Part shown: positions 41,651 to 46,269 of the stretch, one piece after another | Position numbering within the stretch: position 1 is the stretch's first letter | How the letters are laid out: the number at the start of each line of letters is the position of its first letter | From: Caballeronia insecticola | GTDB lineage: Bacteria; Pseudomonadota; Gammaproteobacteria; Burkholderiales; Burkholderiaceae | Direction of reading: 5' to 3' | DNA length: 64,000 nucleotides | Assembly (NCBI RefSeq): GCF_000402035.1 | Contig: NC_021289.1 | Location: 682,001 to 746,000 of the forward strand | Program-made: the position numbers and the translations under genes | The notes under the pieces: generated by a model | What the model saw: only the letters and a program-made list of their open reading frames with translations | Database searches by the model: none | What the model was told of the DNA's origin: nothing

Positions 41651-42298
41651 TCACTGCATCGAAGCGACGGCTTCGTCCGTACTGATGACGCCATGCGCGA
41701 GAAACGCGTAGTTGATCATCGCCGCCTTGTAGCCGTCGCCCCAAACGGGATGACGCGGCCCCGCGGTGGCGTCGCTGACGACATGCACTTCGAAGCCTTG
41801 TTCGAGCAGGTCGCGCAAATGAGATTCGACGCACATATTGGCCAGCATGCCGCCAAGAACGATCCGCCGAATGCCTCGCTTGCGCAGTTGCAGCACGAGA
41901 TCGTTGGTCTGAGGACCGAATACCTTGTGCGGACTCACGACAACCGTCTCGCCGTCGTCGATATACGGCTTGAACTCGTCGAGCCAGTCGGCGCCGGAGC
42001 CTTCGAAACCATCCAGGCTCAACGTACCGCTGCGAGCAAACGTACCGGTGGCGAATTCATCGGTTTCCAGCGGCCCGTTGAACTTCCAGTTGCGATCCGT
42101 CGGGAAGAAATAATGCGGCGAAATGAAGACGCCGTACTTCGCCGACTTTGCCGCCTTGAATATTCGAAGCATGTTTTCTACGGTCTTGTTCTCCGTCACG
42201 CTTGCTCCGACCGCGCCCCAGTTCTTGCCATTCTTGCTCAGGACATCCACTTGCGGGTCGATGAAGACGACCGCCGTCTCGCTTCGATCAAAGTTCAC
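41651..42298 (-). CDS. Isochorismatase-family cysteine hydrolase
   Basis: The protein has 215 residues when begun at GTG 42298, which has a strong GGAGG seven bases upstream; the frame is open to 42535, but the extension is Arg/Ser-rich and non-homologous. The catalytic triad of the family is in place: D14 in VVFIDPQVD, K125 in VSPHKVFGP and C156 in GGMLANMCVESHL. Members hydrolyse amides or vinyl ethers (nicotinamide, isochorismate, N-carbamoyl compounds). It stands as a single gene between the coupled operon and the citrate-synthase-like regulator. Confidence 0.88.
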   Translation of the reverse strand: MNFDRSETAVVFIDPQVDVLSKNGKNWGAVGASVTENKTVENMLRIFKAAKSAKYGVFISPHYFFPTDRNWKFNGPLETDEFATGTFARSGTLSLDGFEGSGADWLDEFKPYIDDGETVVVSPHKVFGPQTNDLVLQLRKRGIRRIVLGGMLANMCVESHLRDLLEQGFEVHVVSDATAGPRHPVWGDGYKAAMINYAFLAHGVISTDEAVASMQ

Positions 42299-42586
42299 TT
42301 TGGGCCTCCGACAAGTTGCGGAATGACTCGACGCCGATGGTGCCACGCGCCTTCGTCTGCTTGCTTGCGTTGCATTCGATGCTTCGGGCTTCGACGCAGA
42401 ATCGGCATCCGGCGACCGGTCCGTTCGGACGGGCGAAAAGGCAACCGTATTGCGTCGCGTCGAGAATAGACCTAATCCGCAGGCGTTGCCAAAATCACGC
42501 AATGCATGACGACGCCCACGCCAACGCGCCGACATCGACGTTCCGTTGATTCATCAAGAGTACAAAGACTTCTGGCCGATTTACGC

Positions 42587-43885
42587 TCAGGCACCCGCGC
42601 TGTTCTCAGCGGACAGCGTCATCTCGTACTTCGCTCGCGGACGCAGCAGGAAAGCCTGCGTGCGCTGCTCCATCACGTGCGCGACCCATCCGGCCGTGCG
42701 GCTCACGATCCAGATTGCGGTGGCCGAGCCGTCGGGCATGCCCAATGCGCGGGCGAGCGTCACGAGGCCGAGCGACACGCCCGGATGCGCGTCCAGTTCC
42801 CGTCGCATACGCTCCAGAAACGCGAGCGTCACGCGTGCGCGCTTGCGTGCGGCGGGCGCCGAATCGCGTTGCGCCGCAATATGTTCGGCCGTCTGCAACA
42901 TCAGATCCGCACGAGGATCGCCGCCCGGATACAGCGGATGGTTGAAGCCGAACAGGCTCGCGCCGTATTCGCGCACGCGTTCGACACGCGAATCCAGTTC
43001 CGACCATGGCTCGCACAGCAGCAGCGTTTCGACCTTCTCCGTGCCCGTACCGGTGGAAAAGCCGATGTGCGAGCCGATGGCCGCCGCCACGCAACTGAAG
43101 ATGTCCGCATTGGTCGATGCAGCCACGCGCGCCGAAAACGTCGCGGGCGCCAGTTCGTTGTCGGCAAGCACGACGAGCGCCGTATTGATCGCGCGCAGCG
43201 TGTCGGCGGTGACTGCAGCACCGGCGGCACGCAGTATCTGACCCGCGATGCTTTCGTTGTCGGCGCGCGGGCAGAATGCCTGCTCAGGCCCGAGAAAGCC
43301 GATACAGCCCGCCATGCTCTGCAACATCAGGCGCGCGGCCTGCACGGCGCCGCCGTCGGCAATCTCTCGCGTGCCGCGTCCCTGCATCGCGAGGGCAAAG
43401 GGCACCATGCCCAGCAATGCGCCAATGTCGCCGCTCACGACCCTGCCCTCGTAGACCGACAAGGAGCGCAGCACGTCGGGCGGCGTCGCGAGCGGCGACC
43501 AGACCGCGAGGCCGCTTTGCCAGACGCCGGTTGCGAGCAGATGCACGACCGATTCGAACGCGGCCCCCGAGTTGGCCAGATCGACCGCGAGCCGGTTGCG
43601 ATAGCGCGGCCCGTGCGGCGTGACTTGCGTGATCGCGGAGTGCAGCACCGGATCGCCGAGACGTAATGTCGATTCGGCCACCGCGCCGGTGGGCGGACGG
43701 CCGCGTTTGCGCGCGGCGAGCCGTTCGATGTCGCGCCGGAGATAAAGGCGCTTGCGGCCATCCTCGGCGGGCGTCGCGCGAATCAGCCCACGGCTGACGT
43801 AGGCGTACAGGGTCGCCGCCTTGATGTTCAGCCGCGCGAGCGCTTCCTCGCACGTGAGCACATCGTTCCAGTCTCGCTCGCTCAT
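42587..43885 (-). CDS. MerR-like DNA-binding domain fused to a degenerate citrate-synthase domain
   Basis: The protein has 432 residues. Residues 9-60 form a MerR/HTH_17-type winged helix (LTCEEALARLNIKAATLYAYV, then DGRKRLYLRRDIERLAARK). Residues about 75-425 align with citrate synthase, with good matches at GFNHPLYPGGDPRA and SRTAGWVAHVMEQ. Active-site residues are mostly lost. The HADHE motif reads LADNE (L240, N243), the catalytic His of GPLHGG is T278 in GFSTGT, and the catalytic Asp of NVDFYS is S371. Only H316, equivalent to the HRVY histidine, remains. I infer a transcription factor with a citrate-synthase-fold ligand sensor rather than an enzyme. GGGAGGAAC precedes ATG 43885. It is divergent from a transporter/aldolase pair, with palindromes between. 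Confidence 0.85.
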   Translation of the reverse strand: MSERDWNDVLTCEEALARLNIKAATLYAYVSRGLIRATPAEDGRKRLYLRRDIERLAARKRGRPPTGAVAESTLRLGDPVLHSAITQVTPHGPRYRNRLAVDLANSGAAFESVVHLLATGVWQSGLAVWSPLATPPDVLRSLSVYEGRVVSGDIGALLGMVPFALAMQGRGTREIADGGAVQAARLMLQSMAGCIGFLGPEQAFCPRADNESIAGQILRAAGAAVTADTLRAINTALVVLADNELAPATFSARVAASTNADIFSCVAAAIGSHIGFSTGTGTEKVETLLLCEPWSELDSRVERVREYGASLFGFNHPLYPGGDPRADLMLQTAEHIAAQRDSAPAARKRARVTLAFLERMRRELDAHPGVSLGLVTLARALGMPDGSATAIWIVSRTAGWVAHVMEQRTQAFLLRPRAKYEMTLSAENSAGA

Positions 43886-43922
43886 GTTCCTCCCCGCCAA
43901 AGTCCCGCCGGAGCGCAAAAAA

Positions 43923-43955
43923 AATCGATATATTGATTTTAAAACTCAATATTGA
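43923..43955. promoter_or_regulatory. Two A+T-rich palindromes in the divergent promoter, candidate operators
   Basis: AATCGATATATTGATT (43923-43938) is a palindrome with one mismatched pair. TCAATATTGA (43946-43955) is a perfect palindrome. Both contain TATTGAT, at 43931 and 43950, 19 bases apart. They lie in a strikingly A+T-rich stretch, 38 bases before the start of the HTH/citrate-synthase gene and about 100 bases before the transporter gene. This is where a divergent autoregulator would bind. Confidence 0.5.
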
Positions 43956-44057
43956 TAAATACAAATTGCGCCTATAAAGTGGGCTTCGGAACACCATAAA
44001 AGGCACCGCGCGCCGTATCGGCGAGAGCGGCAAGCCACTCATATCCGGAGACACCGC

Positions 44058-45419
44058 ATGACCCTGGACACGACGCCGGTTCAGCGCAAACGACTCGATC
44101 TGCGCGACACCCTGCAGGCCGCGCCGCTCGGCGCTTTTCATTTTCGCCTCGCCATCCTGCTCGCGCTGATCCTTTGGTACGACGGTTTCGATCTGTACAA
44201 CGCGTCGTACATCGTCCACGACGTGGCTCCCGCCTGGCATTTGTCGCCGAGTCAGATCGGCTTGCTGCTTTCGTGCGGGCTCGGCGGCTTTGCCATCGGT
44301 TCGGCCGTGTCGGGGCTGTTCGGCGACCGGTTCGGACGGCGTCGCGTGATCCTGCCCGGCGTCTGGATATCGAGCGTGATGAGTCTCGCCATCGCACTGT
44401 TCGCGCACGATCTGGATTCGTTCGTGGCGTTGCGCATCGTCATGGGCATCGCGCTCGGTCTGTTGATGCCGATGTGCGTGACCTACATCAACGAGATCGC
44501 CCCGAAGCGTTCGAACAACGTCTTCACGATCGGCTTTTTCTCGCTCGGCTGGATCGGCGGCGCAACCAGCTCCGGTTTCATCGCGGCGTGGCTGATGCCG
44601 CGCTTCGGCTGGCAAAGCATGTATTACACGGGCGCGCTGGCCATGGTGCTCGCCGTTGCGTTGCAGTTCGTACTGCCTGAATCCGTCGCTTTTCTCGGGA
44701 GCCGCAACCGTCAGGACGACGTGCGCGCGCAACTCGCGCGCTTCTGGCCGGCGCGCGCCGCGGAGTTTCGCGATGCCGAACTGGTCGTGCCCGCGCCGAC
44801 GGTCAAGGCCGGCTCGTTCCGTGCGCTGTTCGCCGCGCGCTTTCGTCGTCAGACGCTGTGTTTCTGGGCGATGGGCGCGCTCTCGCTGTTTTCGTCGTAT
44901 GGATTGTCGGGCTGGCTGCCGACGATCCTGCTGAAGCGCGGCGAGAATCTTTCGAGCAGTTTTGCCTACGGTTCGCTGCTGGTGTTCGCTTCCGCGTTCG
45001 GCAGCCTGCTCTCGGGCTTCATGGCCGACCGTATCGGCAACCGGCGTCTGGCGATGTCGATTGCGTGGCTGCTCGGCGCGAGCGCCATCGCGATGCTCGC
45101 GGTGATGACGGGCGGTCAGCTCTTCTGGGTCATCGCGATGGCGGGCATGTTCGTGATCGGCACGCAGACGGTTCTCAACAACCTCGTCGCGGTGAGTTAC
45201 CCGACTGAAATCCGCAGCACCGGCGTCGGCGTTTTCTTCGGCATTGCGCGCTTCGGCGCCATGTGCGGACCAGCGATCTCGGGCGTGCTGCAACAGGCGA
45301 CAGGCGGCCCCGGCGCGATGTTCGTCGTGCTGGGCGGCGCGCTCGTGACGGCCGCTGCGCTGGTGTTTCTCGTCGAGCGCCCGGAAAACCTGCCCGATGC
45401 GCCCGCCTTCGGACACTGA
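44058..45419 (+). CDS. MFS transporter, aromatic acid:H+ symporter-like
   Basis: A 453-residue inner-membrane protein with about twelve transmembrane segments. Helix 1 has LILWYDGFDLYNASYIV, matching the DGxD signature of the aromatic acid:H+ symporter group (PcaK, BenK type). The cytoplasmic loop motif GLFGDRFGRRRVILPG and its C-terminal counterpart FMADRIGNRRLAMS are present. It likely imports an organic or aromatic acid. It is divergent from the HTH/citrate-synthase protein and followed 88 bases later by a class II aldolase gene. Confidence 0.92.
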   Translation: MTLDTTPVQRKRLDLRDTLQAAPLGAFHFRLAILLALILWYDGFDLYNASYIVHDVAPAWHLSPSQIGLLLSCGLGGFAIGSAVSGLFGDRFGRRRVILPGVWISSVMSLAIALFAHDLDSFVALRIVMGIALGLLMPMCVTYINEIAPKRSNNVFTIGFFSLGWIGGATSSGFIAAWLMPRFGWQSMYYTGALAMVLAVALQFVLPESVAFLGSRNRQDDVRAQLARFWPARAAEFRDAELVVPAPTVKAGSFRALFAARFRRQTLCFWAMGALSLFSSYGLSGWLPTILLKRGENLSSSFAYGSLLVFASAFGSLLSGFMADRIGNRRLAMSIAWLLGASAIAMLAVMTGGQLFWVIAMAGMFVIGTQTVLNNLVAVSYPTEIRSTGVGVFFGIARFGAMCGPAISGVLQQATGGPGAMFVVLGGALVTAAALVFLVERPENLPDAPAFGH

Positions 45420-45507: not shown

Positions 45508-46269
45508 ATGACGCAGAACACGCCCTACACCGCCGCCCCGATCACGCATGACGCGCACGACATGCAGCGCCTCTTCGACGACCTCGCCGCGGCCAACCAT
45601 ATCCTCGCGCAGCACGAAGTACTCGATGGCTTCGGCCACGTGAGCGTGCGCGATCCGCGCAATCCGGACCGTTTTCTGATCGCGCAGTCGATGGCGCCCG
45701 AACTGGTGCAGCCCGAAGATATCCTCACGCTCGACTTCGATTGTCAGCCCGTCGATGGCGACACGCGCAAACGCTATCTGGAGACCTGGATCCACGCCGA
45801 GATCTACCGCGCCCGCCCCGATGTGCAGTCGGTCGTGCACAGCCATTCGCCGTCGGTGATTCCGTTCGCGGCATCGTCGGTGCGGCTGCGTCCGATCTAT
45901 CACATGGCCGGCTTCCTTGCGACCGGCTCGCCGGTGTTCGACATCCGCCATTGCTTCGGCTGCACCGACATGCTCGTGCGCAACAGCGCCCAAGGCAAGG
46001 CGCTGGCCGACACGCTCGGCACATCGGACGTCGCGTTGATGCGCGGTCACGGTTTCGTGGCGACGGGCCCCTCGTTGCCGGCGGCCGTCTATCGCGCGAT
46101 CTATACGGAGCTCAATGCAGGCATGCAGCAGAAGGCCATCGCGCTGGGCGGCGATGTCACCTATCTCGACGAGGGTGAAGGCCGTGCCAGCAACGACACC
46201 AACCTTGGCGTCATCGAGCGGCCCTGGACGCTCTGGAAGCGGCAGGTCGAGGCGCTGCGTCGGGACTAA
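45508..46269 (+). CDS. Class II aldolase/adducin family protein
   Basis: The protein has 253 residues with the zinc site of the fuculose-phosphate-aldolase family: H111 and H113 in VVHSHSPSV and H181 in MRGHGFVATG, with E98 as a possible acid/base. Members are aldolases, epimerases or decarboxylases acting on sugar phosphates or hydroxy acids. Because the upstream gene is an acid transporter, the substrate may be an imported hydroxy acid. It ends 107 bases before a small lipoprotein gene. Confidence 0.88.
   Translation: MTQNTPYTAAPITHDAHDMQRLFDDLAAANHILAQHEVLDGFGHVSVRDPRNPDRFLIAQSMAPELVQPEDILTLDFDCQPVDGDTRKRYLETWIHAEIYRARPDVQSVVHSHSPSVIPFAASSVRLRPIYHMAGFLATGSPVFDIRHCFGCTDMLVRNSAQGKALADTLGTSDVALMRGHGFVATGPSLPAAVYRAIYTELNAGMQQKAIALGGDVTYLDEGEGRASNDTNLGVIERPWTLWKRQVEALRRD

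Follow-up and report, generated by a model that had tools for sequence, protein, structure and literature searches.

A helix-turn-helix protein with a citrate synthase fold lacking the catalytic His and Asp is a probable organic-acid-sensing regulator in Caballeronia insecticola

Results

The window analysed here is a stretch of 64,000 nucleotides from Caballeronia insecticola (NC_021289.1), and all positions refer to it. At 42587..43885, on the minus strand, it encodes a helix-turn-helix (HTH)–citrate synthase-like protein of 432 residues that we propose to be a transcriptional regulator (open reading frame, ORF, 43885-42587; an upstream TTG start at 43918 is the alternative in the ORF list). 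The gap in front of this gene, 43886-44057, holds a candidate operator of 27 bp, ATATTGATTTTAAAACTCAATATTGAT (43930..43956, no strand assigned), and two promoter-like sequences. Across the gap, on the plus strand, stand the divergent gene of a major facilitator superfamily (MFS) transporter (44058..45419) and a class II aldolase/adducin-type gene (45508..46269).

The initial annotation had divided the protein into a MerR-like DNA-binding domain and a remainder that aligns with citrate synthase, and both parts were recovered. Residues 10-60 (43706..43858, minus strand) form an HTH_17/MerR-like winged HTH according to Pfam (HTH_17, 30.1 bits, above the cut-off of 27), secondary structure and the group consensus; PF13411 is listed for some homologues. 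A sequence search of solved structures with the HTH alone gave nothing meaningful (best E 1.8). The citrate synthase fold extends by alignment over residues ~71-417 (42635..43675, minus strand), and the Pfam model Citrate_synt matches residues 202-417 with 151.7 bits (E 3.6e-44). As had been anticipated, databases call such proteins citrate synthase: the nearest named homologues are Caballeronia proteins with this label. None of the curated NCBIfam citrate synthase models reaches its cut-off with the window protein (the best, TIGR01800, scores 115 vs 421.3 bits), which, together with the replacements T278 and S371 described below, rules out plain membership among the citrate synthases. The HTH contains the string TLYAYVSRG, the consensus of both groups of HTH-synthases that we fetched, those with a reduced active site and those bearing the catalytic His; its conservation is a biased measure, because the loci of the genome scan were retrieved in part with the pattern TLY[AST]YVSRG.

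Three other proteins of the genome match the synthases, a GltA and two that are PrpC-like, all with intact active sites, and we aligned the window protein with them. T278 falls at the catalytic His and S371 at the catalytic Asp (presumably H264 and D362 of the Escherichia coli enzyme), L240 and N243 at the histidine pair of the HADHE motif, and H316 at the remaining His. These positions agree exactly with those first assigned, and the alignment restores neither the catalytic His nor the catalytic Asp. The GPxHGGAN loop of the synthases is replaced by GFSTGTGT. Two of the earlier statements have to be qualified. Both HADHE histidines are indeed substituted, but the first is not diagnostic, because the genome's own PrpC has Tyr there and yet keeps the rest of the set. 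H316 is kept as claimed, but that it alone remains of the active site was too strong: R325, R396 and R415 are kept as well, and we take these to be the arginines that bind the carboxylates of oxaloacetate and citrate in real synthases.

This pattern holds across 112 proteins of at least 400 residues, our own included, which represent the nearest kin since they were drawn from the 120 matches listed of 1611. His is found at the catalytic His position in 0 of the 112 (T 85, V 10, I 7, A 4, M 4, Q 2), and Asp at the catalytic Asp position likewise in none (A 91, E 16, S 2, and K, P and R once each). The second HADHE position is split between N (57) and H (55). All but one of the proteins (111) have H316, and R325, R396, R415 and R417 are kept in all 112. 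The retained arginines make a dicarboxylate-type ligand likely.

The candidate operator is conserved upstream of orthologues and presents the half-sites TCAAT/ATTGA in three places. It is the sole match in the genome (6.96 Mb) at up to three mismatches; at this stringency, with looser sites not sought, no wider regulon was seen. On the plus strand, the promoter-like sequence TTGATA-N17-TAAAGT (43952..43980) precedes the transporter gene; it came from a general promoter scan with 0.1 such sites expected, and is kept in orthologues. Its first hexamer is overlapped by the operator, whose centre lies at about -44 from the inferred transporter start. On the minus strand, TTGTAT-N17-TAAAAT (43936..43964) precedes the regulator's own gene; it was found with a directed pattern only and is absent from the general scan. 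The operator overlies this site in its spacer and its second hexamer. In 14 non-identical upstream regions, the flank 17 bases past TTGATN reads TANNNT in 14/14 and TANAGT in 13/14 (TAAAGT in the window). Because these regions were picked for a good operator match, independent evidence comes from their flanks only; at L129, one of the 14, the divergent gene is not that of the MFS transporter.

To describe the wider set of loci we call a protein reduced when the catalytic His is absent. There are 53 such rows, including near-duplicates and two Acidimicrobiales proteins (L093 and L098), and 39 remain under 90% identity, these two among them. The 62 His-bearing rows include two partner-type proteins with extended starts (L094|7 and L101|3); both are still contained in the 60-row set used for neighbour and core counts and are excluded from the 58-row motif count. 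Genes at fetched loci were called with a home-made ORF caller. The full motif, with 25 fixed positions and up to eight mismatches allowed, was found in the upstream stretch of 26/53 reduced and 31/62 His-bearing genes (16/39 and 29/58 without near-duplicates), and in none of the controls: 0/905 stretches upstream of the remaining genes at these loci, 0/126 other divergent promoters and 0/575 first-order resampled stretches. The core TCAANNTTGA stands upstream of 18/39 reduced and 40/60 His-bearing genes, near-duplicates removed, vs 4/905 control genes.

In a quick tree of the synthase domain, which used 108 of 152 rows, thinned at 80% identity and 280 residues, 80 HTH-bearing rows group together (support 100); GltA and L101_3, misfiled as HTH-bearing by column count, fall outside this group. 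The window protein lies within a group of 28 reduced rows (support 98); next to this group stand nine HTH-synthases, mostly of myxobacteria, with the catalytic His retained (support 89). A more careful tree of 61 rows, built without the catalytic columns, returned the same 28 reduced rows as an exact clade (100/99); this tree left out L098_2, L101_3 and GltA, and it sampled the His group by taking alternate rows and adding eight, mostly from myxobacteria. Going by titles, all organism-named rows of the reduced clade are betaproteobacteria, nearly all Burkholderiales, and its other rows belong to genomes in the same family as the window. The Acidimicrobiales HTH-synthases without catalytic His (L093 3423-4682 and L098 1793-2974) lie outside this betaproteobacterial clade on long branches. 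Both catalytic residues, His and Asp, are present in 58/62 His-bearing HTH rows, and at least three of these rows (L049, L095 and L111) have no His equivalent to H316.

The fusion is far more widespread than the window locus. A scan of genome contigs returned at least 590 stretches encoding some relative, a share of them without the HTH. All of the best 80 of these align from residue 21 or earlier, and therefore include the HTH; their titles place HTH-citrate synthase fusions in Proteobacteria, Myxococcota, Chloroflexota, Gemmatimonadota and Actinomycetota. Eleven plasmid records carry a relative, and 46 of 299 sampled genomes of the family, our own included, have a match at E 1e-60 or better. 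Most members fetched outside the reduced clade keep His and Asp, often with the same operator-type core upstream.

The neighbours of the window gene point to the transport and decarboxylation of acids. The MFS transporter resembles aromatic acid/H+ symporters (TIGR00895, 282.1 bits, below the cut-off of 418.55). The class II aldolase/adducin-type protein is a probable decarboxylase: its best solved relative is Mlr6791 (2z7b, E 2.2e-47), presumably a decarboxylase of a pyridine dicarboxylate, and it scores 89.3 bits with the PhtC model (cut-off 200). A 4,5-dihydroxyphthalate decarboxylase-like protein is encoded in the divergent cluster of Pandoraea L036 and also at L139, L141 and L142; no such gene was found at other close loci in the home-made gene calls. 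Other reduced loci present ring-hydroxylating oxygenases, PdxA-type dehydrogenases, reductases, TctC receptors, aldehyde dehydrogenases and cupins, with Pfam labels taken from one or two representatives per neighbour cluster. Genes with a Rieske motif stand within six genes at 14/39 reduced vs 0/60 His-bearing loci, a neutral measure, yet one confounded by taxonomy. At least one gene of an aromatic list, compiled after inspection of the reduced loci, or a Rieske motif occurs at 30/39 of them. Just downstream of the regulator, an isochorismatase-like ORF runs from 41651 to 42535 on the minus strand, its listed start probably too early; the same gene calls gave no clustered homologue of it beside the orthologues.

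Discussion

The 432-residue protein is very probably a dedicated one-component regulator, in which a probably inactive citrate synthase domain would sense an organic acid, control the divergent transporter and decarboxylase genes and repress its own gene. It probably represents a gene switch made from a metabolic enzyme, since the catalytic residues are lost, a DNA-binding head is present and a conserved site lies beside transporter and decarboxylase genes. The initial annotation had proposed a ligand-sensing regulator of the divergent genes, and this proposal is supported by the conserved HTH, the clade-wide absence of His and Asp, the kept arginines, an operator-like site in the very divergent region that it named, placed over two promoter-like sequences, and neighbours for acid transport and decarboxylation.

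In the mechanism that we envisage, the synthase domain would act as a sensor that, judging from its residues, is no longer catalytic. Dimerisation through the synthase fold, as expected from the family, would set two HTH domains on 43930-43956. The bound protein would lie across its own promoter, over the spacer and the second hexamer, resulting in autorepression; at the transporter promoter it would sit just upstream and also on the first hexamer. A centre near -44 suits a contact-type activator; the alternative is repression relieved by the ligand. The trigger would be a small organic acid in the old oxaloacetate/citrate pocket, held by R325, R396, R415 and H316. Our best guess, based on the neighbours and the kept arginines, is an aromatic or pyridine dicarboxylate or an acid formed in its breakdown, which would enter the cell through the divergent transporter and be the substrate of the probable decarboxylase of the adjacent gene. 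This is the weakest step of the model, and we offer only a ligand class because the neighbours differ among orthologues.

Several observations weigh against this model. The MerR_1 model, at residues 11-58, scores 20.1 bits, just under its cut-off of 21.6. In the predicted structure, the linker 64-79 and residues 417-421 are of low confidence, and the block 411-420, which contains R415, averages 61. The core TCAANNTTGA is missing from the 410 bases taken upstream of 21/39 reduced genes, and the full motif occurs in 13/17 reduced rows with Asn243, the type of the window, vs 3/22 without it. The candidate operator is thus well shown for the Asn243 sub-clade of the window and not for the whole reduced clade. 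As the motif was derived from this sub-clade, its counts there are partly circular; those in the His group are not. Ten of the 39 reduced genes are not divergent by the home-made gene calls, with one undecided, and 9/39 reduced loci have no aromatic-type neighbour by our criteria. Finally, the classical MerR promoter has a spacer of 19-20 bases, and the 17-base spacers of both predicted promoters do not fit the MerR twist mechanism.

Could the protein still be an enzyme, a citrate- or citramalate-like synthase or lyase with altered chemistry whose HTH serves only for autoregulation (a trigger enzyme)? The near-universal H316, the invariant acid-binding arginines and the presence of both catalytic residues in most His-bearing relatives would suit such a protein. 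We nevertheless regard it as improbable, as the catalytic His and Asp of known synthases are replaced, by varied residues, in 112/112 sequences, and the genome already encodes a GltA and two PrpC whose catalytic sets are intact. Even less credence, next to none, goes to a decaying and functionless gene fusion. The lost catalytic residues are what one would expect of decay, but the ratio of nonsynonymous to synonymous substitution rates (dN/dS) is 0.07-0.16 against the six closest relatives tested, so the gene is neither a chance ORF nor a decaying one. The ratio is 0.07-0.18 across eight relatives; the value of 0.29 against the ninth and most distant sequence tested, L116, speaks less well for our model and still against decay. 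Decay is thereby ruled out, and it would also leave the conservation of the HTH, the arginines, the operator-like site and the promoter flank, and the matches in 46/299 family genomes, without a reason.

The two other alternatives overlap with our model and deserve more weight. A regulator that reports general carbon status by sensing a central metabolite (oxaloacetate, citrate or 2-methylcitrate) or an acyl-coenzyme A (CoA) is possible, if doubtful. Its pocket arginines are the oxaloacetate-binding ones, and His-bearing relatives often adjoin genes for citrate synthase, isocitrate-lyase-type proteins or CoA-transferases; set against this, the neighbours in the reduced clade look pathway-specific and vary by locus, the genome-wide search returned a single operator match, and the GPxHGGAN loop is gone. 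Pure repression at both promoters, lifted by the ligand and with no activation of the transporter gene, is a serious contender that falls somewhat short of an even chance; simple repression of both promoters is nearly as likely as activation combined with self-repression. The overlap of the operator with the first hexamer of the transporter promoter speaks for repression. The operator nevertheless lies mostly upstream, with its centre near -44 from an inferred start, and the second hexamer TAAAGT is off consensus, as in activator-dependent promoters.

HTH regulators with former enzyme domains are already known. In GabR/MocR a GntR-type HTH is fused to an aminotransferase fold, and the window protein resembles them in using a former enzyme domain as sensor; it differs in that both its HTH and its enzyme domain are unrelated to theirs, and no cofactor is expected. 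With the citrate and 2-methylcitrate synthases (GltA, PrpC, CitA; PF00285) it shares the fold, but not the catalytic His and Asp or the GPxHGGAN loop, and it adds the N-terminal HTH. MerR-type/HTH_17 regulators are alike in their N-terminal winged HTH and their placement by divergent genes, and unlike in the sensor, which here is an enzyme fold with no further MerR-type domain matched by Pfam, and in the spacer length given above. PutA, NadR and BirA, in which an enzyme domain is likewise joined to DNA binding, are trigger enzymes that keep catalysis; the reduced clade has lost the catalytic residues, and relatives outside it may be active. What is unusual here is that members with complete and with lost active sites belong to a single fusion family and have an operator core in common. 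We found no description of an HTH-citrate synthase regulator in the open literature; subscription journals were mostly outside the scope of this search, so one may have been missed.

For the family as a whole, we lean towards the view that HTH-citrate synthases are transcription factors reading an operator of the TCAATNTTGAT type, many of them beside a citrate synthase, CoA-transferase or 2-methylisocitrate-lyase-type gene that they would control. Most have all catalytic residues in place and may be both enzyme and regulator, responding to their own substrates; one betaproteobacterial lineage would have shed catalysis and been reused as a sensor for aromatic-acid pathways. If the proposed function is true, many genes named citrate synthase are regulators, and the name would both misdirect models of central metabolism and conceal how aromatic acid breakdown is controlled. 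Within this one fusion, the active site ranges from complete to absent, which makes the path from enzyme to sensor testable; if the reading of the whole family is true, living members would display this path from an enzyme to a pure sensor.

The two groups differ also in their synthase neighbours. A synthase without HTH stands within two genes at 32/62 His-bearing vs 1/53 reduced loci (L093). These 32 partners have Glu at the Asp position in 29 cases and are PrpC-like with Asp in three (L060, L066 and L072). They are mostly divergent, e.g. at L081, L055, L108, L046, L097 and L104, and six that were inspected read GPLHGGAP-like and NVE. At eight Paraburkholderia/Burkholderia loci (L056, L070, L071, L079, L084, L086, L087 and L107) an intact HTH-synthase diverges from a type III CoA-transferase, within a largely conserved flank that, at all but L107, comprises a GntR-UTRA protein, an aldo/keto reductase and a MocR-type regulator. 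At the xanthomonad-type loci L057, L060, L066 and L072 it diverges from a phosphoenolpyruvate-mutase/isocitrate-lyase-type gene, followed in 3/4 by a PrpC-like synthase; possibly these HTH-synthases control the methylcitrate pathway.

Two loci have an arrangement of their own. On a plasmid of Acidovorax carolinensis (L114, 14010-15232) the HTH-synthase is annotated as two overlapping pieces and lies near an IS5 transposase, with Rieske and nadC-like genes alongside. In a Burkholderiaceae metagenome-assembled genome (L040), two reduced HTH-synthase genes flank genes for an aldehyde dehydrogenase, a TctC protein and a thiamine pyrophosphate enzyme.
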